64,000 nucleotides of DNA from the NCBI RefSeq assembly GCF_036634195.1, contig NZ_JAZIFY010000001.1, forward strand, positions 558,001 to 622,000, written 5' to 3'. Below the pieces are notes generated by a model. It did no database searches. It was not told the origin of the DNA and worked only from the letters and a program-made list of their open reading frames with translations. The DNA comes from Streptomyces sp. P9-A4. Its GTDB lineage: Bacteria > Actinomycetota > Actinomycetes > Streptomycetales > Streptomycetaceae. The translations under genes were made by a program, and so were the position numbers. Below, one piece after another: positions 38,181-64,000 of the stretch (its first letter is position 1; each line of letters opens with the position of its first letter).

Positions 38181-39851
38181 TCACGAGGTCAGGAAGACCG
38201 CGTCCCAGTCCGTGGGGAGCCCGTCGGCGGCCCCGGCCGGGGCGGTCGGGTCCGTGGCGGCCCCATCCGTGGTGACCCCGTCCACGGTGGCCGGGGCCCT
38301 CGGCCTTTGGGCCCGCGCCGCCTCCGCGTAGCCGAGGAGGGTCAGGGCGACGCCGGCGGCGCCGTCGATGAGCGACGGGCTCTCCAGGACGACCGTACCT
38401 CCGGGAGTCCGTACCAACTGGCGGTATCCGAAGGCGGATTCGGTGTCGTGGAGGGAGACCAGCGCGTCCGCGAGGCGGTCGGAGCCGCGCCAGAGCGCCG
38501 GCTCGCCGGTGCGTTCGGCGAGCCGGACGGCGGCGTGCAGGACGCCTGCGAGGCCGTGGCAGAAACCCGGGTCGTCGCCGCCGAGTTCGGCGAGCGGCCG
38601 GGCGAGGAGGGCGGTCATCGCGTCGACGGCCAGGCGGGAGACCGCGGGGTCGCCCAGCTCCGTGCCGGCCAGGTGGAGCGCGCCGGCGATGCCGGCGGTG
38701 CCGTAGCACCACCCGGCCCGCGTCGTCGCGCCCCGGGCGGGCGGCGCGGCGCCGGTCTCCTCGTCGAAGGCGACCCGGCCGGGCCACGCGACCGCGCCGT
38801 GCCCGTCCTCGTACGCGTGACCGCCCACCCAGTCGGTGATCCGCCGGAGCGCGTCGGGGGTGCCCGGCACGCCGTGGCCGGCCCGGTGGGCCAGTGACAG
38901 GAGGGCGAGCGGGCCGCAGACGCCGTGGGCGGCGCCCGCGTTGAAGTCGCCGCGCGGGTAGGCGGCCCGGTCGCGGGGCACCGCGTAGCGCTCGGGGGCG
39001 CACCACCAGCCCGGGACCTCGATGCCGTCGACCCGCCGCGGCTCGGTGAGCGCGACGAGCAGGGCGAGGACGTCCTCCAGGGCCTCGGCGGCCCGCTCGT
39101 CGCCCCGGACGGCCGCCGCGAGGAGCACCCTGCCCTGGCCGGTGAGACCCGCGACGACGTCGTAGTCGAGGTACGAGAGCCCGGTGTCCCGGCGCTCGCG
39201 CAGCGCGGCGGCCCGGGCCCGGGCGTGCCCGGCGAGCACGCCGGTGCCGCGTTCGAGCAGCCGGGTGTAGCCGCCGGTGGACTCGGCGCCGAGCAGCGCG
39301 GGCAGCAAGAGGTTCCCGACGGCCGCGGGTCCCTCACGCGGGGCGAGCGCGGTGGCGGCGGCGAGATGCGCGTGCGCGGGCGCGCGCCACGCGTCGTCGT
39401 GCCGCGCGCAACGGTCGTGCAGCAGACCGACGCCGGGATGCCCGAGCAGCACGGAGGCCGGCTGCCACCCGGGCAGCATCAACTCCCCCGGCACCCCGGC
39501 GAACTCCTCTGCGGTGACCCCGGCGACCCGCTCGGGATCGCGGAGCCGCTCGGCGACGTCGAGGGCGACGCGGAGTGCGGAGTCGCGTGAGTTTGGGCGG
39601 TGAGTGGGATTGGCGGCGGGGTCGGGGCTGGGGGCCGGAGTACGGGCCGGGGTCGGGGGCGGGGCCGGGGCCGGGGGCGAGGCCGAGGCCGGAGTCGGGG
39701 GCGAGGGCGAGGGCGAGGGCGAGGACAGGGTCGAGGCCGGTGCGGAGGCCAAGACCTGGCCTGGGGCCGAAGCCGAAGCCGGGGCCGGGGCCGGGGCCGA
39801 AGCCGGAGCCGGGGCTTTCTCGTTCCGGTTGTCTCGGTGGGCTTGGGTCAT
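38181..39851 (-). CDS. lanC: Lanthionine synthetase C (LanC)
   Basis: 556 residues. The cyclase domain (about 110-530) shows the LanC set: NAGAAHGVCGPLALLSLA, TRAGWCYGTAGIAGALH and DDPGFCHGLAGVLHAA; the Cys of GWCYG and the Cys-His of FCHG are the three zinc ligands, so it should be active. It catalyses Michael addition of cysteine thiols onto dehydrated Ser/Thr. ATG 39851 overlaps the LanB stop (ATGA). Residues about 15-90 form a Pro/Ala/Ser tract (PAPASAPAPAPASASAPG and similar) absent from ordinary LanC proteins. About 100 bp without a clear terminator separate it from the metallophosphoesterase. Confidence 0.9.
   Translation of the reverse strand: MTQAHRDNRNEKAPAPASAPAPAPASASAPGQVLASAPASTLSSPSPSPSPPTPASASPPAPAPPPTPARTPAPSPDPAANPTHRPNSRDSALRVALDVAERLRDPERVAGVTAEEFAGVPGELMLPGWQPASVLLGHPGVGLLHDRCARHDDAWRAPAHAHLAAATALAPREGPAAVGNLLLPALLGAESTGGYTRLLERGTGVLAGHARARAAALRERRDTGLSYLDYDVVAGLTGQGRVLLAAAVRGDERAAEALEDVLALLVALTEPRRVDGIEVPGWWCAPERYAVPRDRAAYPRGDFNAGAAHGVCGPLALLSLAHRAGHGVPGTPDALRRITDWVGGHAYEDGHGAVAWPGRVAFDEETGAAPPARGATTRAGWCYGTAGIAGALHLAGTELGDPAVSRLAVDAMTALLARPLAELGGDDPGFCHGLAGVLHAAVRLAERTGEPALWRGSDRLADALVSLHDTESAFGYRQLVRTPGGTVVLESPSLIDGAAGVALTLLGYAEAARAQRPRAPATVDGVTTDGAATDPTAPAGAADGLPTDWDAVFLTS
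39610..39830. repeat. Low-complexity tandem tract in lanC 5' region
   Basis: Imperfect 6- and 12-nt repeats of the type GGGGCCGGGGCC and GAGGGCGAGGGC encode the Pro/Ala/Ser tract near the LanC N-terminus. Copy number in such tracts tends to vary between strains and to be mis-assembled. Confidence 0.8.
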
Positions 39852-42800
39852 CGGTTGTGCCTCATCCTGCTGAGGGCGAGGGCCAGGCCTTCGCGGGCCG
39901 TCACGTGTGCGAGGACCTCCTCCTCGCGGCGGGGGCCGATCAACCGGTTGCAGTGCATGTGCGCGAGGCTCAGCGCGACCGGGGCCCTGCGGTACGGGGC
40001 GAGGGCGGCGCGCAGGGCCGTCAGCGTCTCGGCGAGGGCGGCGCGCGGCGCGGAACCGGCGGCGCCGGAGAAGAGGCCGGCGACGGCCTCCTTCGTGGCG
40101 CGGGCTACCTCCGAGCGCCGGGCCAGGAAGCGGGGGTCGCCGAGCCAGTCGAGGGCCTCCTCCGGGCTGCCGAGCCCGGTGAGGAGGTCGAGGATGCCGA
40201 GCGCGGCCCGCTTGACCACCGGCAGCCCGCCGCCGTCGCCGCCACCCGCCAGCTGCGCCAGCACGCCCGCGCTGTCCGCGTGGAAGACCCGTTCGGCGTG
40301 GCCGAGCGCCGCCGGGCCTCCGTACCGCTCCGTCTCGGGGTCGTACGTGTCGAGCACCAGCCGGTCCGTCAGGCCGACGTCCCGCAGCTCCTCCGCCCAC
40401 TCCCGTACGGCCGGCAGCAGCACCGGCCACAGGGTCTCCGGCTTGCCCCGGAAGCGCAGGCGCAGATGCGGATCGGGGTCCGCGTAGCGGAGGAAGAACC
40501 AGCCTTCGGGCCCGGCGGCGCGCACCGCGTCCGAGTCGACGAGCCGGCTCAGGTGCCGGGAGAGGACCTGGTCCTGGAGGCCTTCGGGGACGTACACCTT
40601 GGCGTACAGCCACTCGCCGCCGGGCAGCACGGCCCGCCGACCGGCGTGCGCCTGCGCGGCGGCTGGCGGCACGGCCGGGGCAGCCGCGGCGCGGGGCCGG
40701 CGGGCGAAGAGCGGGACGACCAGTTCGCAGGCGTGCGGGCCGTCGGGCCCGGCGAACCAGCCCGTGCCGTCCGGGCCGCCGTACCACTCGTTGATCACCA
40801 GGCCCCTCGGCCGCTTCACCTCGTCGTGCAGGACGAGCAGATGGCGCGGGTCGTCGAGGTCGACCGTGACCCGGTTGTCCGCCCGCGCGAGCAGCACGTA
40901 CCGGGGTACCCCGAGGCGCAGTCGCCACCCGGCGACGGCCTCGCGCCAGCCCGGGCCCGTGCCGTCGGTACGGGCGGCGGCGTCCTCGCGCAGCGCGCTG
41001 TCCGGGAGCCAGCGGGCGGGCGCGAGCACGGTGCGGCCCAGCCGGACCCGGGGCAGGGCCGGGGCGGCGGCCCAGGAGCCCCAGTTCCAGGGGGCGCACC
41101 AGTCGTGGCCCTCGTAGCCGAGTTCGAGCAGGAAGCGTGCCACGTACGGCAGATGACCGCTGCCGGGATTGAGCATCGAGTGCGACACCGGGCGCACCGC
41201 CCGGCCCGTCGGCGTGTGGACGATCCACATCCGGTTCAGGTCGGCGTGGACGGCAAGGTCCTCGGGGCGCAGGTCCGTGGTGTCGTCGCGGGCGGCGGAG
41301 GCCGGGACGCCGAGCGGGATGCGGTACGGGAGCAACGGGGGCACGGTGGCGACGTTCGCGGAACGGGCGACGCGGGGCCGGTACGCGACGGTGGCGACCA
41401 GTTCGCCCGTCGGGGCGCGGGGCACATCCGCCGAGGGAGGCCGCACCGGGTCCACCGCCGGGTCCTCGGCGGACCGGCTCTCCGCGTCCACCGCGGACCC
41501 ACCCACCGAGTCCAGAGCGGACCGGCCCGCCTCACCATCTGCGGAACTCCCCGCCGGATCCCCCGCGGACCGGCCCGCCGAGTCCACGTCGGGCCGCCCT
41601 GTCTCACCCTCCGCCGACCGCCCCGCCTCGCCCCCCGCCGACCGGCCCGCCCCGTCCCCCGCCGACTGCCCCGCCAGCCCCTCCGCCCGCGCGACGATCG
41701 CCGCGAGTGCCGCGCCGCCGTCGGCCAGGACCGGTGCGAAGCGGCCGAACGTGGCGCCCGCTCGGGGCGAGCCGGGGTTCGCGCCCAGGACCAGGTGGAA
41801 GTCGCCGGCGAGCAGGGCCTCCCAGCTCCGGGCGGCGAGTTCGGCGCCCAGTTCGAGCGAGGTCGGCACTCCGCGCTCCGGGGCGCTGCCCTCCGTCGAC
41901 TCGCCCAGCGCCTCCAGTGTCGTGTCGTCGAGGACGATCTCGGCGGGGCTGTCCCCGCCCCCGTCCGGGCTCCGCAGGGCCGCCTGCAACAGCTCTCCGA
42001 GGAACTGGTCGCGGCGGCGGCCGTCCGCCGAGGGGGACGTCGGCTCGGCCGGTGTGCCGTCCGCGCCCGCGCCGCTCCGGTAGGACTCGGGGAGGCCGAG
42101 GCCGCGCGCCTCGTCGAGGAGTTCGAGCAGCGGCACGGCCCGCTCGGTGCCGTACCGCTCCAGGAAGGCCAGGTGGTACGCGCGCAGGTGCGGCATGCCC
42201 GGGCGGGTGGCCGTGGTCCGCCAGAGGGCGGCGGCTGCCCGCTCGGCCTGCCGGCCGACCTCGGCCGGCAGGACGAGCCGCGCGTCGAGCCGCAGGTCCG
42301 ACTGGATCAGGTCGTCGGCCTCGCGCAGCGCCCGCATCCGGGCGGTGACCTCGGCGAGCGCCGGGCCACGCCCGGCGGGCGGTGCCGTGTCCAGGGCGGC
42401 GAGCCCGGCACGTATCCCGGCGAGGGCCCGGGGCAACGGGTGGGCGACGCCCGCGAGACGGTCGAGGACGTGGTCGAGCGGGGCCGTGTGGTCGGGCGGC
42501 GGCATCAGGTCGCTCAACAGGAAGCCACCGCCCACCAGTTGCGCCACCGTCCGCTCGACGGTCGCCGCCGGGGCCTGCGGGAAGCTCTCGGCGAGTCCGG
42601 CGACCAGCTCGGGCCAGGCGACCGGCTCGGCGGCGCGCTCCAGGACATGGGCGACGACCGCGCTGGACCGCACGGAGTGCGCCAACTGGTGCTTCCCGCC
42701 GGGATCGTGGTGGTCGACGAGGACCACGCGGCCGTCGCGTACGGTGCGCAGCGGGTTGGCGGTCAGGGCGGCGCGCTCGCGCAGTCCCGGGGTCGTGACG

Positions 42801-43261
42801 ACCTCGTCGGCGAGCAGGCCGTGCAGCCAGGCCGCGTCGGGCCGGCTCGCGCTCCGGTGCGCGTCGCCCACCTCCCGTACGACGTCGGTACCGGTGCCGA
42901 TGTCGGTACCGGCGAGCGCGACGCCCGCGAAGTGGCCGAAGGGGGTGGCCCGGAAGGTGGCACGGAGGCGGTACTTGGTGAGCGAGACGACCGTACGTAC
43001 GAGTCGCCTGCGCTTGGTCGGGGCCCCGGCCCGTACCTTCTCGGCCTCGTCGGCCAGGCTCGGGCTGGCGAGCCGTACCGCCGCGAGGAAGACCGGGTCG
43101 CCCGCGAGCCGCACGACCTCGGCCCGCAGCTCCTCGTCGGAGGCGAAGTCGAGGTCGACGGCGCCGCAAGCGGGGGGCGCGCCGTCGGCGGGTGGCACGG
43201 GGCGGGCGGCGGCGCGCAGCAGCACCGTCCCGGCGGCGTCGAAGATCTCGCTGTCCGTCAC
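39848..43261 (-). CDS. lanB: Full-length class I lantibiotic dehydratase (LanB)
   Basis: 1137 residues from GTG 43261 (GGGGA upstream). The N-terminal glutamylation domain (about 40-720) contains KYRLRATFRATPFGHFAG and, near its end, NVATVPPLLPYRIPLGV and HSMLNPGSGHLPYVARFL. The C-terminal elimination domain (about 815-1120) contains EWLYAKVYVPEGLQDQ, GWFFLRYADPDPHLRLRFRG and LVLDTYDPETERYGG. Both halves are in one polypeptide, so this is a canonical class I enzyme that glutamylates Ser/Thr with Glu-tRNA and eliminates glutamate, not a split thiopeptide-type pair. A 90-residue Ala/Gly/Ser/Asp-rich insert lies at about 525-615. Its target is the precursor at 43396-43542. Confidence 0.92.
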   Translation of the reverse strand: MTDSEIFDAAGTVLLRAAARPVPPADGAPPACGAVDLDFASDEELRAEVVRLAGDPVFLAAVRLASPSLADEAEKVRAGAPTKRRRLVRTVVSLTKYRLRATFRATPFGHFAGVALAGTDIGTGTDVVREVGDAHRSASRPDAAWLHGLLADEVVTTPGLRERAALTANPLRTVRDGRVVLVDHHDPGGKHQLAHSVRSSAVVAHVLERAAEPVAWPELVAGLAESFPQAPAATVERTVAQLVGGGFLLSDLMPPPDHTAPLDHVLDRLAGVAHPLPRALAGIRAGLAALDTAPPAGRGPALAEVTARMRALREADDLIQSDLRLDARLVLPAEVGRQAERAAAALWRTTATRPGMPHLRAYHLAFLERYGTERAVPLLELLDEARGLGLPESYRSGAGADGTPAEPTSPSADGRRRDQFLGELLQAALRSPDGGGDSPAEIVLDDTTLEALGESTEGSAPERGVPTSLELGAELAARSWEALLAGDFHLVLGANPGSPRAGATFGRFAPVLADGGAALAAIVARAEGLAGQSAGDGAGRSAGGEAGRSAEGETGRPDVDSAGRSAGDPAGSSADGEAGRSALDSVGGSAVDAESRSAEDPAVDPVRPPSADVPRAPTGELVATVAYRPRVARSANVATVPPLLPYRIPLGVPASAARDDTTDLRPEDLAVHADLNRMWIVHTPTGRAVRPVSHSMLNPGSGHLPYVARFLLELGYEGHDWCAPWNWGSWAAAPALPRVRLGRTVLAPARWLPDSALREDAAARTDGTGPGWREAVAGWRLRLGVPRYVLLARADNRVTVDLDDPRHLLVLHDEVKRPRGLVINEWYGGPDGTGWFAGPDGPHACELVVPLFARRPRAAAAPAVPPAAAQAHAGRRAVLPGGEWLYAKVYVPEGLQDQVLSRHLSRLVDSDAVRAAGPEGWFFLRYADPDPHLRLRFRGKPETLWPVLLPAVREWAEELRDVGLTDRLVLDTYDPETERYGGPAALGHAERVFHADSAGVLAQLAGGGDGGGLPVVKRAALGILDLLTGLGSPEEALDWLGDPRFLARRSEVARATKEAVAGLFSGAAGSAPRAALAETLTALRAALAPYRRAPVALSLAHMHCNRLIGPRREEEVLAHVTAREGLALALSRMRHNR
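41420..41685. repeat. Low-complexity tandem insert inside lanB
   Basis: Degenerate repeats of about 18-30 nt (for example GCCGACCGCCCCGCC variants) encode AGRSAGGEAGRSAEGETG, SAGRSAGDPAGSS and similar in the middle of the LanB glutamylation domain. The reading frame is kept throughout. Confidence 0.8.
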
Positions 43262-43395: not shown

Positions 43396-43542
43396 TCAGC
43401 AGTGCCAGGACGTGACCGGGCAGGAGAGACAGGTGCCGGTGCCCGTGAAGGACTTGGCCTCCGTCGCCGGGGCGTCCTGGACGACGACCTCCAGGTCGAG
43501 GTCGAGGTCGAACTCCAGCTCTGCGGAAAGTGCGGTCGCCAT
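43396..43542 (-). CDS. lanA: Class I lanthipeptide precursor peptide (LanA)
   Basis: 48 residues, too short for usual ORF cut-offs. ATG 43542 follows a strong GGAGG six nt upstream (TTGGAGGAACAC). The acidic leader (about residues 1-32) contains LEFDLDLDLEV, the F-x-L-D type motif that LanB enzymes recognise. The core (about 33-48) reads TGTGTCLSCPVTSWHC: six Ser/Thr that can be dehydrated and three Cys (38, 41, 48) for up to three (methyl)lanthionine rings. It precedes lanB and lanC in the same direction. The leader cleavage site, and thus the core N-terminus, is inferred; no leader protease or exporter gene is seen in this window. It is close to the FxLD lanthipeptide type but lacks the methyltransferase often found with it. 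Confidence 0.88.
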   Translation of the reverse strand: MATALSAELEFDLDLDLEVVVQDAPATEAKSFTGTGTCLSCPVTSWHC

Positions 43543-43695
43543 GTGTTCCTCCAAGGAATCGCGGTCGCCGAGACGGCCGGGTCGGCCGGCCGCCGTTCAC
43601 GCCGTTGCGCGGACCAAGATCTAGGCGGGCTCGCCAAACCACGACTTAAGAGGGCCTAACCCCGCTCTGACGCCGCTCCCCTCGCACCGAGATCC

Positions 43696-43785: not shown

Positions 43786-45681
43786 ATGGTCGAGAAGACG
43801 GACGACGACGGCACGCTGCGGTCGCTGCACGAGCGGGGCCGGGTGGCCGCCGAGTACCCGCGGGTTCGGGCGCTGGTCGGCGCCACCGACACCGCCGGGC
43901 GGCGCCGGGCGGGCAACCTGCTGGCCCGCGTCGGCCCGGACGCCGTGCTCGCCGAACACCCGGGCACACCGGTGGTGTCGGTGGCCTTCACCGGGCACAG
44001 CACCGTGTCCGGTCTCGTCGCGCCGGTCACCGCCGAGCTGGCCCGGCACGGACTGCTGCTGCGCCCGCACGTGTCCGACTTCGACAGTTACGTCTTCGAC
44101 CTGTCGGACACGGGGAGCGAGCTGTACGCGGCGAAGCCCGACGCCGTCGTGTGCCTGCTGGACGCCTCCGTCGTCTTCGACGAGGTCCCGCTGCCCTGGC
44201 GGCCCGAGGACGTGGCCCGGGTCTTCGACGAGAAGCTGCGGCTGCTCGGCGGGCTCGCCGGCGTGTTCGACGGTGTGGGCCGCGGCACCCTGGTCCTCAA
44301 CACCCTTCCGCTGCCGCGCGAGTGGCCGGCGCAGCTGGTCGCGCTGCGCGACCGGGCGCGGCTCGGCGCGGTGTGGCGGGAGGCCAACGCGCGCCTGCTG
44401 CGCCTGATGGACGAGCACCCCTCGCTGACCGTCCTCGACCTCGACCCGCTGCTCGGCGCGGAGCTGCCGCTGCGCGACGACCGGCTCGGCGTCTACACGC
44501 ACACCGAGCTGTCACCCGAGGCGCAGGCGGCGTACGCGGGCGAGCTCGCCGGCGTGTTCCGCGCGACCGCCGGGCGGGCGAAGAAGGTCCTGGTCCTCGA
44601 CCTGGACAACACGGTGTGGGGCGGGATCCTCGGCGACGACGGGATCGAGGGCATCGAGGTGTCCGGCTCCTACCGCGGCGAGGCCTTCCGCAAGCTGCAA
44701 CGTTCGGCGCGGCAGATCGCCTCGCAGGGCGTGCTGCTCGCCGCGGTCAGCAAGAACGACCTGGAGCCGGTGCGCGAGGTGCTCGGCTCGCACCCGGACA
44801 TGACGTTGCGCGAGGACGACTTCGTCCGCGTGGTCGCCAACTGGCGTCCCAAGCACGACAATCTGCGCGAGCTGGCCGCCGAGCTGAACCTCGGCGTCGA
44901 CAGCTTCGTGTTCGCCGACGACAGTCCGTACGAGTGCGGCCTGGTCACCCGTGAGCTGCCGGACGTCGCGGTGGTCGCGCTCGACGACGAGCCGGCGCTG
45001 CACGTCGAGAAGCTGCTGCGAGACGGCTGGTTCACCGTACGGGACGTCACGGCCGACGATCTGAAGCGCCCCGAGCGGTACCGGGAGGATCTGGACCGCA
45101 AGGACTTCCTGGACAGCTTCTCGTCCCTCGACGACTACCTGCGCGAGCTGGAAGTCCAGGTGCGGTTCGCCGACGCCTCACCCGCAGAACTGGCCCGGGT
45201 CTCCCAACTGACCTTGCGCACGAACCAGTTCAACCTGACCACCGAGCGGCTCCAGGAGGCGGAGGTGGCCGAGCGGGCGGCAGCGCCGGGCTCGCTCGTC
45301 CTGACCATCCGCTCGGGCGACCGGTTCGGCGACAACGGCGTCGTCGGCGCCGTCCTCGCCCACCGCGACGACGACGCCCTCGTCATCGACAACTTCCTGC
45401 TCAGCTGCCGGGTGTTCGCCCGCGGCATCGAGCAGGCCTGCCTGTCGGCGCTGCTCGGCCACGCTCGTGAGCAGGGTCTGAGCACGGCACGGGCCGGCTA
45501 CCGGCCGTCGGCCAAGAACGGCAAGGTGCGGGACTTCTATCCCGCCAACGGCTTCGCGCCGGCCGCCCCGGGCGCCGGCCCCGACAGCTCGCCCGTCCTC
45601 TTCCGTCACGACCTGGCGGACATCACCGCGCCGCCGGAACACGTCCGGCTGACCCTGAGCCTGGGAGGGCTGCACCAGTGA
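43786..45681 (+). CDS. FkbH-like HAD-superfamily acyl transferase
   Basis: 631 residues. An N-terminal region of about 260 residues with VVSVAFTGHSTVSGL precedes the HAD-IIIC domain, with KVLVLDLDNTVWGGILGDDG (nucleophile and acid/base Asp), LLAAVSKNDLEPVREVL and VFADDSPYECGLV. The C-terminal GNAT-like domain has SQLTLRTNQFNLTTERL and DNFLLSCRVFARGIE. FkbH proteins dephosphorylate 1,3-bisphosphoglycerate and load glyceryl onto an ACP. Here the ACP follows with a GTGA overlap, but the usual oxidoreductases for methoxymalonyl-ACP and the KASIII for tetronates are absent, so glyceryl-ACP or lactyl-type loading is likelier. The ATG follows CGGGAGAGC. Confidence 0.9.
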   Translation: MVEKTDDDGTLRSLHERGRVAAEYPRVRALVGATDTAGRRRAGNLLARVGPDAVLAEHPGTPVVSVAFTGHSTVSGLVAPVTAELARHGLLLRPHVSDFDSYVFDLSDTGSELYAAKPDAVVCLLDASVVFDEVPLPWRPEDVARVFDEKLRLLGGLAGVFDGVGRGTLVLNTLPLPREWPAQLVALRDRARLGAVWREANARLLRLMDEHPSLTVLDLDPLLGAELPLRDDRLGVYTHTELSPEAQAAYAGELAGVFRATAGRAKKVLVLDLDNTVWGGILGDDGIEGIEVSGSYRGEAFRKLQRSARQIASQGVLLAAVSKNDLEPVREVLGSHPDMTLREDDFVRVVANWRPKHDNLRELAAELNLGVDSFVFADDSPYECGLVTRELPDVAVVALDDEPALHVEKLLRDGWFTVRDVTADDLKRPERYREDLDRKDFLDSFSSLDDYLRELEVQVRFADASPAELARVSQLTLRTNQFNLTTERLQEAEVAERAAAPGSLVLTIRSGDRFGDNGVVGAVLAHRDDDALVIDNFLLSCRVFARGIEQACLSALLGHAREQGLSTARAGYRPSAKNGKVRDFYPANGFAPAAPGAGPDSSPVLFRHDLADITAPPEHVRLTLSLGGLHQ

Positions 45682-45920
45682 AGAACCTCGACGACTTCCT
45701 CACCCTCGTGGAGAGCGAGATCGGTCTGTCCCTCACGCCCGCGACGGTCGGCGCCGGATTCGACGAACTGCCCGGCTGGGACTCGCTCCACCTGCTGACG
45801 CTGCTGACCGCGATCGAGCGGGAGACCGGGCAGCGGGTGCCGATGACGCAGGTCCTGGAGTCGACCAGCCTCCACGACATCTTCGCGCTCACGGCGGCGG
45901 CACGGACGGTGGGGACATGA
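45678..45920 (+). CDS. Free-standing acyl carrier protein
   Basis: 80 residues; the phosphopantetheine serine is in LPGWDSLHLLTLLTAIE, and ESTSLHDIFAL matches the last helix. GTG at 45678 overlaps the FkbH stop and its own stop overlaps the thioesterase start, so the three are translationally coupled. It should carry the three-carbon unit loaded by the FkbH-like protein. The partner PPTase is plausibly that at 36507-37190. Confidence 0.92.
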   Translation: MKNLDDFLTLVESEIGLSLTPATVGAGFDELPGWDSLHLLTLLTAIERETGQRVPMTQVLESTSLHDIFALTAAARTVGT

Positions 45921-46762
45921 CCGGCGCCTCCGTCGGGTCCGGTACGACCGTGCCGGCCCGCCGGGGCTCGGCCCCGGGCCCGGCCCGTTCGGCGTATCTG
46001 CTGCCCCGGCAGCCCGACCCGACGCGGGCGCCGCTGCGACTGTTCTGCTTCCACCACGCGGGCGGCGCGGCCTCCTCGTTCTCCGGCTGGCAGGAGCGTC
46101 TGGGCGGCGCCGTCGCCGTCGTACCGGTGCAGCTGCCCGGCCGCGAGCACCGGGTCAAGGAGCCCAGGCTGCGGGAGTTCGCGCGGCTCGTCGACGAGCT
46201 CGACGAGGCGCTCGACCCGCTGCTCGACGCTCCCTACGCCTTCTACGGGCACAGCATGGGCGGCATCGTCGCCCACGCGCTGACCCGGCGGCGGATCGAG
46301 CGCGGTCTCACCCCGCCCCGGCAACTCCTCGTCGGGGCCTGCCCGCCGCCGCACCGGCCGCACCTGGACGACGGCGTCCCCCCGCAGCGGCGCACCGACG
46401 AAGAGCTGACGGCATGGATGGCCGGCCTCGGCGGGCTGCCCGAGCTGGTGCGGCGCTACCCGGAGTGGCTCCGGCTCGCCGTCTCCGTGCTGCGCGACGA
46501 CCTGAGCCTCGTGCACAGCCACACCTCCGGCCGGGGCGCCACCACGGCGCTCGACCCGCTGCCGGTCCCGATCCGCGCGCTCGCCGGGTCGAGCGACCCG
46601 CTGGTGACACCACGGCTGGCCGCCGAGTGGGCCCGCCACACGACGGCCGACTTCCGGGTGTTCACCCTGGCCGGCGGGCACTTCTTCCACCGCTCGACAC
46701 CCGGCATCGTCCTCCGGCTGGTCGCCTCGCTGCTCGGCGCCGAGCACAGCGCCCGGTCCTGA
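45917..46762 (+). CDS. Type II thioesterase
   Basis: 281 residues. The alpha/beta hydrolase set is visible: LRLFCFHHAGGAASSF, YGHSMGGIVAHAL (catalytic Ser), RALAGSSDPLVTP (Asp) and LAGGHFFH (His). Such enzymes remove aberrant acyl groups from PKS or NRPS carrier domains. About 25 extra residues rich in Gly/Arg/Pro precede the core. Its start overlaps the ACP stop. The three-gene block FkbH-ACP-TE lies about 200 bp before the PKS. Confidence 0.92.
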   Translation: MTGASVGSGTTVPARRGSAPGPARSAYLLPRQPDPTRAPLRLFCFHHAGGAASSFSGWQERLGGAVAVVPVQLPGREHRVKEPRLREFARLVDELDEALDPLLDAPYAFYGHSMGGIVAHALTRRRIERGLTPPRQLLVGACPPPHRPHLDDGVPPQRRTDEELTAWMAGLGGLPELVRRYPEWLRLAVSVLRDDLSLVHSHTSGRGATTALDPLPVPIRALAGSSDPLVTPRLAAEWARHTTADFRVFTLAGGHFFHRSTPGIVLRLVASLLGAEHSARS

Positions 46763-46966: not shown

Positions 46967-49900
46967 ATGACTGCTGCACCCCGCCCCGTCGTACTGTGGC
47001 CGGTCTCGGCGCCCGGGCCGGCCTCGCTGCGAGCCCGCGCCGCCGCTGCCGGGGAACTGCTCGACAGCCTCACCGGCCTGTCCCCGGCGTCGGCCGCGGC
47101 CGCGCTGACGGCGGCCGACGAGGCGGCCGGCCACCGGGCCGTGGTCCTCGGCCGGGACCGCGACGAGCTGCTCACGGGGCTGCGGGCGCTGGCGGCCGGC
47201 CGGATCGAGGACGCCGGCACGGAGGTACGGCGGGGCCGGCTGCCGGAGGACGGTGCGGCGCCCGGGGCCGTCTTCGTCTACTCCGGATTCGGCGCGCACT
47301 GGGACGGCATGGGCGTCGACCTGCTCGACGGCTCCGAGGCGTTCCGGAACAGTCTCACCGCCTGCGCCGACGAGCTGCGCCCGCTGGTCGGCTGGGACCT
47401 GCTCGATGTCCTGCGGGGCGCCGAGGGCGCCCCGGAGCTGGAGTCCGCGGCCGTCGTGATGCCGGCCCTGGTGGCCGTCATGATCGCGCTGACCGAGGAG
47501 TGGCGCTCGCTGGGCGTCGAGCCGGTCGCGGTGGTCGGGCACAGCATCGGCGAGATGGCCGCCGCGCACGCGTGCGGGGCGCTGCCGCGGGCCGAGGCGC
47601 TGCGGATCGCGGCGGTGTGGGGTGCGGCCCTCACCGACGAACTCGCGGGTGGGCACGGCATCGTGGCGGTGCTGCTGCCCGCCGAGGAGATGCGGGAGCG
47701 TCTCGCGCCGTGGGGCGGCCGGCTGGGTCTCGCCGCCGTCAACGGTCCCCGCTCGGTGACCGTCTCGGGCGAGGAGGAGGCGCTCGGCGAGCTCCTGGCG
47801 GCGCTGGCCGCCGAGGGCGTACGCACCCGCCGGATCCGGTCCGACGTACCGGTCCACGTGGCACAGGTGGACACGATCATGGACCGGCTGCTCGCGGAGC
47901 TGCGAACGGTACGGCCTGCCGCGTCCCGGATCCCGTTCTACTCCTCCGCGCTCGGCGCCTCGGTGGACACGACGGAGCTCGACGGGCCCTACTGGGCGGG
48001 CCAGTTGCGCCGTCCGGTGCGGTTCGAGTCGGCGGTACGCGCGCTGCTCGCGGACGGTCACGGCGCGTTCCTGGAGGCCGGACCGCATCCCGTGCTCAAG
48101 CTGGCCGTCGAGGAGACGGTCGAGGACACCGGTCTCGCGGCGGACGTCGTGGTGGCCGGGTCGCTGGTGCGCGACCGCGACGGGCGGCAGGCCCTGTCGG
48201 CGGCGTTCGCCGACCTGTGGACGCACGGCCTGCCTGTCGACCTGACCCGGGCGGCGACCCTTCACCAGGCCCAGGACGCGGGCAGCGAAGACCAGGGCCG
48301 GGAAGACCGGGACACCGAAGACCTGGGCGGGGAGGACCAGCGCAGGGATGACCTAGGCGGAGAAGGCCGGGGCGCCGGTGGGCCCGCGCGTCTGGAGCTG
48401 CCTCCGTACGACATCGCCGCGGACGCCGCCGAGGCGGCCCGCTCCGTATCCGAACTCCGCTCCGAAATCGATGCGTTGACCGAGGTTGAGCGCCTTCGGC
48501 GCCTCCTGGAGGTCGTACGGGAGCAGACCGCCGACGCGCTCGGAGCGGGCCGGGGCGCCGCGATCGGGGCGCCCGGCGACACGTTCCGCGACCTCGGCCT
48601 GGAGTCCTCGGCCGCGGTCGTGCTGCGCAACCGTCTGGCCCAGGCGCTCGGGCTTCGTCTGCCCGTGGCCGTCGCCTTCGACCACCCCACGCCCGACGCG
48701 CTCGCCACGCATCTGCACGCGCTGCTGTACGAGACGGCCGCGACGCCCGGGAGCACGGGCCGCCGCGCGGACGTCGATCCCGGCGAGCCGATCGCGATCG
48801 TCGGCATGGCCTGCCGCTACCCGGGCGGGGTGTCCTCGCCCGAGGACCTGTGGAAGCTGGTCCGCGAGGGCACCGACGCCATCGGCCCGTTCCCCCGGGA
48901 CCGGGACTGGGACGAGGACCTGTACGACCCGGACCCGGAGGCCGTCGGCAAGTCCTCGACCGCCCGAGGCGGATTCCTCTACGAGGCGGGCGGGTTCGAC
49001 GCCGGCTTCTTCGGCATCAGCCCGCGCGAGGCGACGGGCATGGACCCGCAGCAGCGGCTGCTCCTGGAGACGGCCTGGGAGACCTTCGAGCGGGCCGGCA
49101 TCGACCCGACGACCCTGCGCGGCAGCGACACCGGCGTCTTCGCCGGCACCTACGGCTTGGAGTACGGGCCTCGGCTCGCGGACGCCGCCGAGGGCGGCGT
49201 CGACGGCTACCTGCTGACGGGCCAGTTCGGGAGCGTCGCCTCCGGCCGCATCGCCTACACCCTGGGCCTCGAAGGCCCGGCGATCACGGTGGACACGGCC
49301 TGCTCCTCGTCCCTGGTGGCGCTGCACCTCGCGGTGCGGTCGCTGCGGCAGGGAGAGTGCTCGCTCGCGCTTGCCGGTGGCGCCGCGATCATGGCGAGCC
49401 CCGGGATGTTCGTGGAGTTCAGCCGCCAGCGCGGACTGTCCCCGGACGGCCGCTGCAAGGCGTTCTCCGCGACGGCCGACGGCACCGGCTGGAGCGAGGG
49501 CGTCGGCCTGCTGCTCGTCGAACGGCTCTCCGACGCCGTCCGCAACGGCCACCCGGTCCTCGCCGTCGTACGTGGCAGCGCGGTCAACCAGGACGGCGCG
49601 AGCAATGGCCTGACCGCACCAAGCGGTCCTTCGCAGGAGTCCGTCATCCGCCAGGCCCTGGCCGACGCGGACCTCAGCGCGGGCCAGGTCGACGCGGTCG
49701 AGGCCCACGGCACGGGGACCCGCCTGGGCGACCCGATCGAGGCACAGGCACTCATCAACACGTACGGCACCGGACGCGACGCCGAACACCCGCTGTGGAT
49801 GGGCTCGTTGAAGTCCAACATCGGGCACACGCAGGCCGCCGCGGGCGTCGCGGGCGTCATCAAGATGATCATGGCGATGCGGAACGGGGTGCTGCCCCGG

Positions 49901-52900
49901 ACCCTGCACGCGGAGGACCCGACGGACCACGTCGACTGGTCCGACGGCACGGTACGGCTGCTCACGCAGGAGCGCGCCTGGGACGCGAGGGGTGACGAGC
50001 CGCGCCGCGCGGGCGTGTCGTCGTTCGGGATCAGCGGAACGAACGCGCACGTCGTGATCGAGCAGGCACCCGAGGAAGCCCCCACGGTCACAGACGGGGC
50101 CGAACCCACCGCTCTTCCCTGGCTGTTGTCGGCGAAGAACGAGCAGGCACTGCGCGACCAGGCACGCCGGCTTCACACGTACGCCACCGAACACCCCGAC
50201 ACCCCGGTACGAGACGTCGCAGGGGCGCTCGCCGCACGTGCCCGCTTCGATCACCGCGCCACCATCGACACCACCGGCGACCGCACCGCGCTCCTCGCCG
50301 CCCTGGACGCCCTCGCCGAAGGCCGCGAGGCACCTGGTCTGACCACCGGCACCACCCTCACCGGAAAGACCGCCTTCCTCTTCACCGGACAAGGCAGCCA
50401 GCGCCTCGGCATGGGCCGCGAACTCCACGAAGCCGAGCCGGTGTTCGCCGCCGCCTTCGACGAGATCGCCACCCTCTTCGACCAGCACCTCGACCAGCCC
50501 CTGCGCCACGTGATGTGGGGCGAGGACGCCACCACCCTCAACCAGACCCAGTACGCACAGGCAGCCCTCTTCACCCTCCAGACCGCACTCCAGCGCACCC
50601 TGGAACACCACGGCCTCACCCCCGACACCCTCATCGGCCACTCCATCGGCGAGATCGCCGCCGCCCACGCCGCCGGAGTCCTGGATCTGCCAGACGCCGT
50701 CACGCTGGTCGCGGTCCGCGGCCGGCTCATGCAGACCGCCCGCAACGACGGCACCATGCTCGCCATCCAGGCCACCGAAGACGAGATCGCACCCTTCCTG
50801 ACCGAGGGCGTGGACATCGCCGCGCTCAACGCGCCCGGCTCGCTCGTGGTCTCGGGCGATGCGGAGAAGGTCGCCGCAGTTCAGGAGCACGTCACGGCGC
50901 TGGGCCGGAAGACCTCGCGCCTGACGGTCAGCCACGCCTTCCATTCGGCGCACATGGACGAGGTCCTGGACGAGTTCCGGACCGCGATCAGCAGCCTGAC
51001 CTTCCACGCGCCCACGATCCCGGTCATCTCCAACGTGACCGGCCTGCCCGCCACCGGCGACGACCTCCGCTCCCCCGACTACTGGGCACGGCACATCCGC
51101 GGAACCGTCCGCTTCCACCCCGGCATCCAACACCTCGAAACCAACGGCACCACCCGCTACCTCGAACTCGGCCCCGACGCCGTGCTCACCGCCCTCGCCC
51201 AGCAGACCCTGGACGGGCCTGCGGTCGTCCTCGTACCCACCCTGCGCAAGAACGCACCCGAACCCACCACCCTCGCCACCGCGCTCGCCCGCCTCCACAC
51301 CACGGGCCACACCCCCACCACCTGGCAGCCCCAGACGCCGGCGCCGACCGTGGAGGACCTGCCCACCTACCCCTTCCAGCACGAGCACTACTGGCTCTCG
51401 TCGCGGCGGGCCGGCACGGACGTCACGGCCGCCGGGCTCACCGCCACGGATCACGCGCTGCTCGGTGCGGTGGTGACGCTCGCCGACACCGACCAACTGG
51501 TCCTCACGGGCCGGATCTCGCTGCGCACCCACCCCTGGCTCGCCGACCACACCATCTCCGGCACCGCCCTCCTGCCCGGCACCGCCTTCGCCGACCTGGC
51601 CCTCCACGCCGCCGGGCTCGCGCAGGTCCGGACGGTGGAGGACCTGACCCTGGAGTCTCCCCTCGCCCTGGGCGCGGACACCGCGGTCACCCTCCAGGTG
51701 GCGGTGGAGGCGGCGGACCCGGCGGGCCGCCGGGCGATCACCGTGCACTCACGCACGGACGAGTCGGAGCCGTGGACCCGGCACACCTCGGGCACGCTCA
51801 CGGACGCCGCCCCGGCTCCCGAGCCGATCGCGTGGCCGCCGCCGGGTCAGCGGGTCGACCTCTCGGGCGCGTACGAGCGGCTCGACGCGCACGGATACTC
51901 GTACGGCCCGGCATTCCAGGGTCTGACCGCCCTCTGGCGCGACGGCGACGAGCTCTACGCCGAGATCGAGCTCCCCGAGGGCGTCGACATCACCGGGCAC
52001 ACCCTTCACCCCGCCCTGCTCGACGCCGCACTCCACCCGCTGGTCGACGGAGCCGAGGGCCTGCTGCCGTTCGGCTTCGGCGGCGTGACCCTGTACTCGA
52101 CGGGTGCGACCCGGCTGCGGGTGCACGCGACCCCGTCCGCCGACGGCGGTGTCACGCTGCGTCTGGACGATCCGGCGGGCGCGCCGGTCGCGGTCGTCGA
52201 GTCGCTGGTGCTGCGCCAGGTGGAGGCCGGGCGGCTCGCGGACGGTGCCCGCCGTCAGCCGCTGTTCACGGTCGAATGGCAGCCGTCCCCGGCCGCCGGA
52301 GCCGCAGGCCACGAGGACCGCGACGACCGTGAGCAGCGGGTGGTGCTCGGTGCCTCGCCCGAGGCCGGGGAACTCGCCGTCGCGCTCGGCGCCGAGGCGT
52401 ACGCGTCGCTGGACGCGCTGCGAACGGCTCTGGACGCCGGCACGGCGACCGTGCCAGGGCTCGTCGTGCACGCGGCCGTGACGGCCGGCGCCGGCCCGGC
52501 CTTCCCGTCGGCCGAGGCACGCGGAACCGCGCACGAGGCCCTGGCGGCGGTGCAGGCGCTGCTGGACGACGAGCGGCTCGCGGACACCCGGATGCTGGTC
52601 GTGACGCGGGACGCCGTGGGCACCACCGCGCAGGCCCCGGCCGTGGGCGTGGCTCCCGAGGTGACGGCGCGGGGACTGGTCGCCGCACCGCTGTGGGGCC
52701 TGCTGCGTTCGGTGCAGTCCGAGTACCCCGGCCGTTTCGCGCTCGTCGACGTCGACGGAGCCGCCGAGTCGTGGCAGCGGCTGCGGACCGTGATCGCGGG
52801 CGGGGAGCCGCAGAGCGCGGTCCGCGCGGGCGAGATCCGGGTGCCCCGACTGGCCCGGGTCGAAGAGGACACGCGGATCGGAACGGACGCCCGGGTCAAA

Positions 52901-55900
52901 GCGGACGCCCGGACCGAGGCGGACGCGCCGACCGCCTCCCCCGCGCCCCTCTCGCCCCTCTCGCCCCTCGCGCCCCTCGTGCCTCTCGCGCCCCTCACTC
53001 CCCTCGCCGCCGACGGCACCGTCCTCATCACCGGCGCCTTCGGAAGGCTCGGCCGGCTGCTCGCCGAGCACCTGGTCGTCCGGCACGGCGTACGGCATCT
53101 GCTGCTCACCAGCCGGCGCGGTCCCGAGGCGCCCGGTGCGGACGAACTCGTCGCCCGGCTCGCCGATTCGGGTGCCGAGGCGCGGGTCGTGGCCTGCGAC
53201 ACCGCCGACCGGGAGGCGCTCGCCGCGCTGGTCGCTTCGGCGCCCGCCGAGCACCCGCTGACGGCCGTCGTGCACACGGCCGGTGTCCTCGACGACGGCG
53301 TGGTGACCGCGCTGACGGCGGAGCGGCTCGACACCGTGGTACGCCCGAAGGCGGAGGCCGCCTTCCACCTCCACGAGCTGACCGCGGGCCTGGACCTGGC
53401 GGCGTTCGTCGTCTACTCCTCGGTGTCGGGTCTGATCGGCGCGGCCGGTCAGGCGAACTACGCCGCCGCGAACACCTTCCTCGACGCCCTCGCCCACCAC
53501 CGCCACGCGCTCGGTCTTCCGGCGACCGCGCTGGCGTGGGGCCTGTGGGGCGAGGGCGGCATGGGCGAGAAGCTCGGCGGCTCCGACCTGGCCCGGATGG
53601 CCCGGTCCGGAGTGGTGGCGATGACGGAGGCCGAGGGCCTCGCGCTGTTCGACGCGGCCTTCGGCCGTCCGGAGCCGCTGCTCGTGCCCGCGCGGCTCGA
53701 TCTGGCGGCGGTACGGTCACGGGCGGCGGCCGACGGCGTGCCGCCGCTGCTGCGCGGCCTGGTCCGCGCGCCGCTGCGGCGGGTCGCCGCCGCCGCGCCG
53801 GCCGGTGGGGGCGGTCTCGCCGCGGAGCTCGCCGGTCTCGACGAGGCAGGGCAGCGGCGCAGGATCACGGAGCTGGTGCGGGAGCAGGCGGCGGCGGTGC
53901 TCGGTCACGCTTCGGCGTCGGCCGTCGAGGTCACCACCGGGTTCAAGGACCTCGGCTTCGACTCGCTGAGCGCGGTGGAGCTGCGCAACCGGATCAACAC
54001 GGCGACGGGGCTGCGGCTTTCGGCCACCCTGGTCTTCGACTATCCGTCGCCGCAGGCACTGGTGGCGCATCTGCGGGAGCGGCTCACCTCCTCCGGGGCC
54101 CCGGGTGCTTCCGGTGGTTCCGCGCTCGCCCCGGCGGCGCGGGCCGTGGCCGGGAGCGGGGCGGCCGACGCGTACGAGCCGATCGCGATCGTCGGCATGG
54201 CCTGCCGCTTCCCTGGCGGGGTGGCCTCGCCCGAGGATCTGTGGCGGCTGGTGAGCGAGGGCACGGACGCGATCGGGCCGTTCCCCGAGGACCGCGACTG
54301 GGATCTGGAGAACCTGTACGACCCGGATCCGGAGGCGGTGGGAAGGTCCAGTACGGACCGGGGCGGATTCCTTTACCGCGCGGGCGAGTTCGACGCCGAG
54401 TTCTTCGGCATCAGCCCGCGCGAGGCGACGGCCATGGACCCGCAGCAGCGGCTGCTCCTGGAGACGGCCTGGGAGACCCTCGAACGCGCCGGTATCGACC
54501 CGGGCGAGGTGCGCGGCAGCGACACGGGTGTGTTCGCGGGCACGATGTACCACGACTACGCACCGCATGTGCAGCACATGCCGCACGAACTCGAAGGCAT
54601 CCTCCTGACGGGGACGCTCGGGAGTGTGGTGTCGGGCCGTATCGCCTACACCTACGGCCTGGAGGGGCCGGCGATCACCGTGGACACGGCGTGCTCGTCG
54701 TCGCTGGTGGCGCTGCACCTGGCCGCGCAGTCGCTGCGGCAGGGCGAGTGCTCGCTCGCCCTGGCGGGCGGCGCGACGGTGATGGCGACTCCGGGCACCT
54801 TCGTGGAGTTCAGCCGGCAGCGCGGTCTCTCGCCGGACGGCCGCTGCAAGTCGTTCTCCAGTGCCGCCGACGGCACCGGCTGGAGCGAGGGCGTGGGTCT
54901 GCTGCTCCTGGAGCGGCTCTCCGACGCCCGCCGCAACGGGCACCAGGTGCTCGCGGTCGTCCGGGGCACGGCCACCAACCAGGACGGCGCGAGCAACGGT
55001 CTGACCGCGCCGAACGGGCCCTCGCAGGAGCGCGTGATCCGTCAGGCCCTCGCCAACGCACGCCTGACGGCCGCCCAGGTCGACGCGGTCGAGGCCCACG
55101 GCACCGGCACCCGGCTCGGCGACCCGATCGAGGCGCAGGCGCTCATCAACACGTACGGCATGGAGCGCGACGCCGAACACCCGCTCTGGCTCGGATCGTT
55201 GAAGTCCAACATCGGGCACTCCCAGGCCGCTGCCGGTGTCGGCGGCGTCATCAAGATGATCATGGCGATGCGGAACGAGGTGCTGCCCCGGACCCTGCAC
55301 GCGGAGGATCCGACGGACCACGTCGACTGGTCCGACGGCACCGTACGCCTGCTCACCGAGAACCGGCCCTGGCAGCCGGCCGGCCGGGAGCCGCGCCGCG
55401 CGGGCATCTCGTCCTTCGGCATCAGCGGCACCAACGCCCACGTGATCATCGAACAGGCACCGGAAGAGACCGGCGCCGGGGAGGAAGAACTCCCGCACCT
55501 GCCCTGGCTGTTGTCGGCGAAGACCGGCGAGGGCCTCAAGGAACAGGCGCGCCTGCTCCACACGTACGCCACCGAACACCCCGAGGTGCCGGTACGGCAG
55601 GTCGCGGCCTCGCTCGCCGCCCGCGCACGCTTCGGCCACCGCGCGGTCGTCGAGGCCGACGACCGGGACGCGCTGCTCACCGCCCTCACCGCCCTCGCCG
55701 AGGAGGCCGAGGCCCCGGGTCTGACCGCGGGCACCGCCCTCAGCGGCGGCACCGCGTTCCTGTTCACCGGTCAGGGCAGTCAGCGGCTCGGCATGGGCCG
55801 CGAACTCCACGAAGCCGAACCGGTGTTCGCCGCCGCACTCGACGAGACGCTGGCGGCGCTCGACCGCCATCTCGACCGGCCGCTGCGGGAGGTGATGTGG

Positions 55901-58900
55901 GGCGAGGACGCGGAGCTCCTGAACCGTACCGAGTACACCCAGCCGGCCCTCTTCGCCCTGCAGACGGCGCTCTACCGGGCGCTCGAGCACCGGGGCGTCG
56001 TCCCCGACCAGCTGGCGGGCCACTCCATCGGCGAGATCGCCGCCGCGCACGCCGCCGGCGTCCTCGGTCTGAACGACGCGGCCCGGCTCGTCACGGTCCG
56101 CGGCCGGCTGATGCAGGCGCTGCCTGCCGGCGGCGCGATGATCGCCGTCCAGGCGACCGAGGAGGAGGTGCTGCCGCACCTCACCCCGGGTCTGTCCGTC
56201 GCCGCGCTCAACGCCCCGGACTCCACCGTGGTCTCGGGCGCCGAGGAGGACGCGCTCGCGGTGCGCGACGCGTTCGCCGCGCTCGGCCGGCGCACCACCC
56301 GGCTCAAGGTCAGCCACGCCTTCCACTCGCCGCTCATGGAGCCGATGCTCCGTGAGTTCGGGGAGGCCGTCGCGGGGATCCGTTTCCGGCAGCCCTCGGT
56401 CCCGCTCGTCATGAGCGGCGACCCCACGACCGCCGCGCACTGGACGGCGCACATCCGCGACACGGTCCGCTTCACCGACCACGTCCGCGTCCTGGAGGAG
56501 CGCGGCGTCGTGCGGTACGTCGAGCTCGGCCCGGACGCGATCCTGACGGCCCTGGCCCGGCAGTCGCTGTCCGGTCCCGCCGTGCTCGCCCCGGCCCTGC
56601 GCCGCGGCGGCGACGAGGCGGCCACGTTCGGCGCGGCCCTGGCCCGGCTGCACGTCGGCGGGCTCTCCCCCACGAACTGGCGGCCGGACCGCACCCCGGC
56701 GCATCCCGAGGACCTGCCGACCTACCCCTTCCGGCAGGACCACTTCTGGCTCACCCGCCGCACGGAGCGGACGGGCGGCGCCGGATCCGGGCACGCGCTG
56801 CTGGACACCGCGGTCCGGCTCGCCGACGACGGTTTCGTGCTGACCGGACGGCTGTCCCGGCGTAGCCACCCATGGCTGGAGGAGCACGCCGTCGGCGGGG
56901 CGGTGCTGCTGCCCGGCGCGGCCCTGGCCGACCTGGCGCTGCACGCGGCGGACCTCGCCGCGGCCGGGTCGGTCGACGACCTGACCCTGGAGGCCCCGCT
57001 GTTGCTGCCCGGGTCGGGCGCCCTCGACGTCCAGCTGAGGGTCGGCGCCCCCGACGAGGCGGGCCGCAGGCCGCTCACCGTGCACTCGCGCCCGGCGGAC
57101 GTCGGCGAGGAGACCGCAGGGGGCCGGGCCGGTGACGGGACGGACTGGGCCCGGCACGCGACCGGCACCCTCGGCGCCGACGCGTCCGACGGCGCGTCCC
57201 CGGACCATCTCGCCTGGCCCCCGGCGGGCGAGCCGGTCGACCTCACCGACGCGTACGACGCGCTCGCCGCCCGCGGGTACGCGTACGGGCCACTGTTCCA
57301 GGGCCTCACGGGCCTGTGGCGCGACGGCGACGACCTGTACGCCGAGGTCGCCCTGCCGGACGACGCCGAGGACGACGCCACCGTGGGTCATGTGCTGCAT
57401 CCCGCGCTGCTCGACGCCGCGCTGCACGCCCTGCTGGTGGCCGACCCCGAGGCACCGCCCCGGGTGCCGTTCAGCTGGTCCGGCATCTCCGCGTACGCCG
57501 AGGGTGCCCGGGCGCTGCGGGTGCGGCTGCGCGGGACGGGGCCGGACACGGCAGCCCTGACCCTGGCCGACACGACCGGCGCGCCGGTGGCCGAGGTGGC
57601 CGAACTGGCCCTGCGCGCCGTGGACCTGAGCGCGCTCGCCGGGGCCTCGGCGGGCTCGCGCGATCCGCTCTACGTGCTGCGCTGGCGGCAGGTTGCGGCG
57701 GAGCGGCCGACGGATCCGGACGCGCCGGCCGCCTCGTGGGCGACGCTCGGCAAGGACGGCGACGCGGTGGCCGGACGGCTCGGCATCCGGGCCCGGCACG
57801 CGGACCTGGCGGGGCTGCGGGCCGCGCTGGACGCGGGCGAGGCGGTGCCGTCGGTGGTCGTGCTGCCCTGGCGGGAGGACGGCGACGACGTGCTCGCCAC
57901 CGCCGACGCCACGGCGGTCGACGCGCTCGCCGTGGTGCAGGAGTGGCTGTCCGACGCACGCCTCGCCGACACCAGGCTCCTCATGGTCACGAGCGGCGCC
58001 GTCGCGGCTGGGCCGGATCCCCGGGTGACCTCACCGGGTGTGTCGACGCTGTGGGGCCTGCTGCGGACCGCGCAGCAGGAGACCGAGGGCCTGTTCACCC
58101 TGGTGGACCTCCCGCCGACCCCGGACACCGATGGTGCCGTGGGCGGGTTCGAGGACGACTGGGCGGCGGAGGCGGAGTCGCTGCCCGCCGTGGCCGCCAC
58201 AGGGCGTGGCGAAATTGCCGTACGGAACGGGCAGTTGTTCGCCCCGACGCTGGCCCGCGCCGAGCTGGACCCCTCGGCCGAGGTGGCCTCGGGCACCGAA
58301 GGCGCGCCGACCGCGGGGGTGTTCGATCCGGAGGGAACGGTGTTGATCACCGGAGGCACCGGCGCACTCGGCAGCCTCCTCGCCCGCCACCTCGTCACCC
58401 ACCACGGCGCACGCCACCTCATCCTCACCAGCCGACGCGGACCCAACGCCCCCGGCGCCACCCAACTCACCCACGAACTCACCCAACACGGCGCCCACAT
58501 CCGCATCGAAGCCTGCGACACCACCAACCCCCACAACCTCACCCAACTCCTCAACACCATCCCCACCCAACACCCCCTCACCACCGTCATCCACACCGCA
58601 GGCACCACCCACGACACCCCCCTCCACAACCAAACACCCACCCACCTCCACACCACCCTCAACCCCAAAGCCCACACCGCCTGGCACCTCCACACCACCA
58701 CCCACAACCACCCCCTCACCCACTTCCTCCTCTACTCCAGCCTCTCCGGACTCACCGGCACCCCCGGACAAGCCAACTACGCCGCCGCCAACACCTTCCT
58801 CGACGCCCTCGCCCACCACCGCCACACCCAAGGACAACCCGCCACCAGCCTCGCCTGGGGCCTCTGGAACCACCACAGCACACTCACCGAAAACCTCACC

Positions 58901-59763: not shown

Positions 59764-64000
<4,237 letters not shown>

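Follow-up and report, generated by a model that had tools for sequence, protein, structure and literature searches.

The window, meaning the whole 64-kb stretch of DNA that was analysed, carries on its minus strand a short frame, lanA, followed by genes for a lantibiotic dehydratase (LanB) and a lanthionine cyclase (LanC), and on its plus strand the beginning of a polyketide gene set (Table 1). The lanA frame lies between lanB and the FkbH gene. Its product, MATALSAELEFDLDLDLEVVVQDAPATEAKSFTGTGTCLSCPVTSWHC, comprises an acidic leader that contains EFDLDLDLE and a probable core, SFTGTGTCLSCPVTSWHC. Within the core, the stretch TGTGTCLSCPVTSWHC contains three Cys and six Ser/Thr residues, and the preceding Ser31 makes seven Ser/Thr. 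The preliminary description of this DNA had proposed a 48-residue lanthipeptide precursor on this strand, with a perfect GGAGG ahead of it, an acidic leader with FDLDLDLEV and a core of three Cys and six Ser/Thr; the sequence agrees with each of these particulars, the coordinates being exact. A GGAGG is also found upstream of the lanA homologues at loci L002, L003, L014, L015 and L017.

Table 1. Features at the precursor locus and in the adjoining polyketide gene set (positions are those of the window).
Feature	Position	Strand	Basis and remarks
lanC, lanthionine cyclase	38181 to about 39845 (5' end uncertain)	-	Pfam LANC_like
lanB, full-length lantibiotic dehydratase	39848..43261	-	Pfam; open from ATG 43327, GTG 43261 preferred by the gene caller
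lanA, predicted class I lanthipeptide precursor, 48 aa	43396..43542	-	ATG at 43542, stop ending at 43396; homologues
Probable LanA core, residues 31-48	43399..43452	-	Silent-only changes compared with V1I1; cleavage point putative
LanA leader, residues 1-30, with FDLDLD box F11-D16	43453..43542	-	Leader/core boundary putative
GGAGG, ribosome-binding site of lanA	43548..43552	-	5-nt spacer to ATG
FkbH-domain protein, first gene of the predicted tetronate cluster	43786..45681	+	TIGR01686, 305 bits; 79% to V1I1
Acyl carrier protein (ACP), predicted tetronate cluster	45678..45920	+	PF00550; 74% to V1I1
Thioesterase	45917..46762	+	PF00975; 68% to V1I1
Type I polyketide synthase (PKS), stretches 3 AT/2 KS/2 DH/2 KR/3 ACP	46967..59695	+	72% to V1I1 over 1346 aa
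Second type I PKS	59764..64000, continues past the window end	+	

LanB contains both the glutamylation and the elimination domain expected of a class I enzyme, with Pfam scores of 538 bits for Lant_dehydr_N (PF04738) and 169 bits for Lant_dehydr_C (PF14028). Its relatives of known structure are 5ehk (E 1.4e-110), 9g04 (3.5e-58) and NisB (PDB code 4wd9, 5.8e-30). LanC matches LANC_like (PF05147) with 119 bits, and its WCYG and CHG motifs, which presumably provide the zinc ligands (Cys and Cys-His, correspondingly), align with those of 8byk and NisC. The earlier statement that intact LanB and LanC adjoin the precursor is thus borne out.

Beyond lanC, Pfam identifies a metallophosphoesterase, a phosphopantetheinyl transferase (PPTase), a glycosyltransferase, a racemase, an Lnt-type acyltransferase, a NUDIX protein, a short-chain dehydrogenase and a PucR-type regulator, and the protein encoded at 33651-34217 has no Pfam match. 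The scanned window genes on this side include no protease, transporter, immunity gene or decarboxylase, which leaves the maturation of the peptide without an explanation and counts against the cassette model. The PPTase and the metallophosphoesterase form a pair just past lanC, at 36507-38077. The PPTase was considered as a cassette gene and rejected: its position differs between the window and Streptomyces sp. V1I1, and both genomes contain two copies (E<=1e-5). In V1I1, 4.7 Mb separate the counterpart of the metallophosphoesterase from the cassette.

The lanA frame is beyond chance, since the precursor pattern is unique against randomized controls and the core residues stay the same in homologues whose codons have changed. 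A lenient pattern, which asks for 25-80 residues, an F[DN]LD motif among the first 30 of them and no fewer than two Cys and four Ser/Thr among the last 20, is matched in the 64-kb window by the lanA frame alone, with two starts; 20 equally long first-order Markov sequences gave no match. In a precursor search of its own genome (7.5 Mb, two contigs) at E<=10, lanA is the single match. No competing precursor with a better leader was therefore found, either by the pattern in the window or by the search in the genome; such a precursor was one of the findings that, according to the preliminary description, would speak against this frame.

A precursor search of 5.8 billion proteins returned seven close homologues, from Streptomyces where the source is named, all of which terminate in SFTGTGTCLSCPVTSW[HN]C, position 47 being His or Asn. 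Six are annotated as “hypothetical protein” and one is unnamed. The expectation that standard gene calling would miss such a gene was overstated, since all seven are called proteins in public sets, although the window's own LanA was not returned by the search. A profile built from 11 precursors retrieved 32 proteins, mostly from Streptomyces with one from Kitasatospora, and two tail types, SFTGTGTCLSCPVTSWHC and KLMTQVCPxTSWxC, dominate the family. The core, originally described as unrecognised, is unusual but not unique, since a small family of Streptomyces peptides shares this tail. The 31 precursors aligned in A2 all have the F11-D16 leader box unchanged; that of L016, which stands outside this alignment, is missing the Phe of the box.

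The comparison with V1I1 shows five silent changes and no replaced codon among the 18 codons of the core, and five silent changes and eight replaced codons among the 30 codons of the leader. The core permits 162 single changes, of which 41 are silent, so that five silent changes out of five would have a chance of about 0.001 in an unselected sequence if the changes are treated as independent.

The family is sparsely distributed. A survey of 392 genomes of the genus with the single-sequence query (E<=0.001) gave five matches, the own genome included, and a second, overlapping draw of 394 genomes of the family searched with the profile (E<=0.01) gave 11, among which G668 is matched in two pieces only and G551 across positions 3-41. 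The single-sequence search is not fully sensitive, because it missed the profile matches G088, G335 and G372. In a draw centred on V1I1, four of 362 genomes match, none of them new, and in a draw of 61 relatives the own genome alone was matched.

LanB and LanC accompany the precursor in nearly all of its other occurrences. Among the 13 other loci found via the precursor, LanB adjoins it in 12 and LanC in 11; the exceptions are L016, which ends inside LanB, and L075, which has neither. Both enzymes are also present at L002 and L003, which were fetched via LanB. The preliminary description had proposed comparing homologous LanB/LanC loci for a short frame in the corresponding position, and the frame is indeed there. 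Gene families around the precursor were counted in 14 loci where it could be located, the window being one of them; L075 and L076, in which the pattern found no precursor, are left out, and the locus contexts of P0002-P0006 lie outside the comparison. LanB occurs in 14 of these loci, LanC in 13, a MurB-like protein in six, a TPR-type protein in five and an MFS protein in four. Several further genes are common only to the close species L017, L069, L070, L072 and L073. Since LanB and LanC alone recur throughout, the constant unit is lanA-lanB-lanC. The LanB-based search gave short frames with the FDLD pattern in six of eight loci, a pattern that yields some chance frames there too; L004 and L007 have none, which counts against the cassette model.

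Several of these loci show individual features. In L017, the LanC relative (9321-10772) is in two separate pieces, which could reflect a broken gene or an assembly error. L075 contains, at about 9940-10081, a precursor-like sequence split across two frames; LanB and LanC relatives are absent from the 20 kb covered there, and the sequence is probably a decayed orphan copy. In V1I1 (locus L014), a gene for a trypsin/alpha-lytic-type protease adjoins lanC (13228-14352); it is a possible leader protease and recurs in none of the other compared loci. Among the loci reached through LanB, that of Clostridium ihumii (L008, 15011-19707) has 12 short frames with FDLD or FNLD leaders downstream of the LanB relative, and that of Thermotalea metallivorans (L006, 9456-9706) has two tandem FDLD precursor-like frames ahead of a LanB relative.

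The MurB-like gene adjoins the cassette in L017 (14574-15569), L068, L069, L070, L072 and L073, and its product contains the Pfam domains FAD_binding_4 and MurB_C. All six genomes also encode a housekeeping-like MurB elsewhere, with 41-43% identity to the cassette-linked protein, while the other eight of the 14 genomes tested, those of the window and V1I1 included, have the housekeeping-like MurB only; there is no second MurB in the window. Five of the six MurB-linked loci are from close species. L068 stands apart (70% identical) and has the block inverted, which indicates at least two arrangements. On one reading the cassette-linked MurB would be a spare target enzyme giving immunity, and on another it is a plain neighbour. 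Its presence in six of 14 genomes hints at a cell-wall target for the peptide.

The leader of the FxLD type, the core rich in Ser, Thr and Cys, and the adjoining genes for a two-domain LanB and a LanC together make it very probable, as judged from the sequences, that lanA-lanB-lanC is a small class I lanthipeptide cassette of the FDLD type. The reading of lanA as a lanthipeptide precursor, made from the sequence alone, likewise gains support from the conserved leader box and core and from the position of lanB and lanC directly downstream. The NCBI model for the FDLD family of class I lanthipeptides, NF038155, gives LanA 10.7 bits, below its cut-off of 20, which counts against this assignment. 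The relative P0017 from S. roseoverticillatus, with the same class I setting and FDLD leader, is so named by NCBI, and 16 of 31 members of the LanA family match the model at E<=1. With its small, strongly conserved core, LanA extends a leader family that is only partly covered by the NCBI model. The model for SCO0268-type class II lanthipeptides (TIGR04451) gives 18.4 bits, below its cut-off of 40, and the enzymes encoded here are LanB and LanC, not LanM. It is barely credible that LanB is instead a peptide-aminoacyl-tRNA ligase or thiopeptide-type enzyme acting on a carrier peptide: NCBIfam does call its C domain thiopeptide-type and two of 31 relatives weakly match the TglA carrier model (best E 0.46), but LanB has both domains and is followed by LanC, and the conserved core holds three Cys and its six to seven Ser/Thr.

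As a class I cassette, lanA-lanB-lanC resembles the nisin and subtilin systems, where LanB and LanC have their homologues NisB and NisC. The FNLD leader box of those peptides is similar to the box in LanA, and their Thr-x-Thr-Cys-...-Cys pattern, which forms rings D and E in nisin, is also similar. The LanA tail differs in having 18 residues and, if the pairing proposed below is right, a second ring larger by one residue; moreover, no LanT, LanP or immunity gene was found beside lanA in the window. The best solved relative of LanB, 5ehk, is entitled “Lantibiotic dehydratase” and is taken here to be MibB, the microbisporicin enzyme. Microbisporicin clusters carry tailoring enzymes, whereas none was found beside lanA, and the core is a different one.

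The variation of the tail across the family suggests how the rings may be formed. The 32 proteins, the window and the 13 loci, less P0030, which has no anchor, make 45 rows with 28 distinct tails. Cys41 is kept in all 28, and Thr44 and Cys48 in 26 each. Among the 26 tails with both Thr44 and Cys48, Ser45 is replaced in seven, which favours a Thr44-Cys48 ring over a Ser45-Cys48 ring, and the former is the best supported of the predicted rings. Cys48 is terminal in the window; one or two residues follow it in 11 of the 26 tails, which argues against an aminovinyl-cysteine (AviCys) end. Such an end, of the epidermin type, would join Ser45 to a decarboxylated C-terminal Cys48. AviCys rings require S-x-x-C spacing at the C terminus, which the S-W-H-C at the extreme end of LanA fits. 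However, both features of the tail table speak against this reading, and no LanD-type flavoprotein decarboxylase was found among the scanned window genes or the scanned recurring neighbour families, so that an AviCys ring is disfavoured and highly unlikely.

Besides the Thr44-Cys48 ring, two further rings would connect Thr35 and Thr37 (or Thr33) to Cys38 and Cys41. In the long-type tails, Thr33, Thr35, Thr37, Cys38 and Cys41 are kept in eight of eight, and Ser40 is changed to Ala in two, so that Cys38 and Cys41 probably pair with Thr residues. In nisin, which ends in Thr-x-Thr-Cys-x-Cys, rings D and E overlap, and by analogy a Thr35-Cys38 ring might overlap with a Thr37-Cys41 ring. Three conserved Thr for two Cys leave the pattern ambiguous and allow other pairings, which counts against the model.

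By analogy with known class I enzymes, LanB would bind the FDLDLD box of the leader, glutamylate Ser and Thr of the tail with glutamyl-tRNA and eliminate glutamate to yield Dha and Dhb. LanC would then couple each of the three Cys to a dehydrated residue, so that a compact peptide with three rings results, and in the window genome the removal of the leader at the putative cleavage site and the export of the predicted product would rely on proteins encoded elsewhere. The three-gene set lends itself to easy testing by co-expression.

The genes on the other side of lanA appear by sequence to be an abyssomicin-type tetronate cluster, separate from the peptide cassette. The first PKS is probably a loading AT-ACP followed by two modules. 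Within about 40 kb past the window, genes were identified for a LuxR-type regulator, a luciferase-like oxygenase, a 2-oxoacid acyltransferase (A4), a KSIII and a P450, together with a homologue of AbyA5 (PDB code 4ywf, E 6e-105); an MFS protein, a SARP, a peptide-type ABC transporter, a ferredoxin and more PKS are named from gene order and start residues only. The abyssomicin-type set of FkbH, ACP, KSIII, A4 and AbyA5 is therefore present by sequence, and FkbH, which was considered as a peptide tailoring gene, was rejected as such, since it belongs with this set. The likeness to the aby and abm clusters extends to the A5, PKS, P450, LuxR and luciferase-like genes; the flanking genes named in the text of the abm paper (PMC5819245) are different ones.

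The junction of the two gene sets is found again in V1I1, where the genes for the precursor, LanB and LanC adjoin those for FkbH, ACP, thioesterase and PKS in the same divergent arrangement. A PPTase gene lies in between, and the counterparts of the AbyA5, A4 and KSIII genes beyond the window also follow in the same order. The outer flanks differ: the metallophosphoesterase adjoins lanC in the window and lies at 0.74 Mb in V1I1, where the cassette is at 5.47 Mb. Of the 392 genus genomes surveyed, 50 have an AbyA5-like gene (E<=1e-40); the homologue of the window cluster is most similar to that of V1I1 (71%), and no other match listed exceeds 56%. By the single-sequence search, only two of these 50 genomes have a precursor match, namely those of the window and V1I1, so the junction belongs to one subtype. 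The LanC tree joins the window and V1I1 (91/98). Inheritance of the junction as a unit, in at least two species, is most likely. Two observations count against it: the LanB tree places the window, V1I1 and L016 in one group without resolving which are sisters, and the identity between the window and V1I1 is lower for LanB and LanC (59-64%) than for the PKS-side genes (68-79%).

A common inheritance does not by itself imply a common function. Two independent clusters, brought together by chance or hitch-hiking, is the account towards which the evidence leans on balance: the cassette is without FkbH in 14 of 15 relative loci, and most AbyA5-bearing genomes are without the cassette. It has to be set against the junction and orientation, kept in two species despite the differing outer flanks, and against the LanC tree. 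It is doubtful, although conceivable, that the cassette works as a single unit with the abyssomicin-type cluster. The lanthipeptide would then be produced alongside a folate-pathway inhibitor and support it, e.g., as a second antibiotic directed at the cell wall, or a free Cys would link it to the polyketide at the reactive enone. The cell-wall variant is suggested because the cassettes of relatives carry a spare MurB, possibly an immunity gene.

A hybrid product, with the polyketide attached to the lanthipeptide as in the class III lipolanthines, is very improbable indeed. The two gene sets are adjacent and divergent, their junction is common to two species with different outer flanks, and PKS or fatty-acid genes are mentioned in lanthipeptide clusters of all four classes in a passage of Walker et al. 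(PMC7268733). However, the PKS side is equipped with a tetronate set of its own (FkbH, ACP, A4, A5 and KSIII), 48 of the 50 AbyA5-bearing genomes are without a precursor match, and the three other genomes with a precursor match are without an AbyA5-like match, as are the profile-only genomes G088, G335 and G372. A class III LanKC, by which a lipolanthine would be recognised, was not found among the scanned window genes.

In the literature searched, neither the core and family strings nor a linkage of a lantibiotic dehydratase to an abyssomicin cluster was found, although an earlier listing in the supplement of Walker et al. (PMC7268733) is possible. The strings “lanti” and “lanthi” are absent from the main texts of the abm paper (PMC5819245) and of a survey of abyssomicins (PMC7176366), and the term “FDLD” occurs in PMC9889658 and PMC3930743. 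The lanA frame is genuine and conserved, and would encode an uncharacterised class I lanthipeptide, whose linkage to a tetronate cluster was not found described in that literature. Two linkages make its function testable, the abyssomicin-type junction in two species and the second MurB in six of the 14 genomes. Another cassette of the lanA family, that of L068, has ketosynthase-like genes about 8 kb beyond the precursor.
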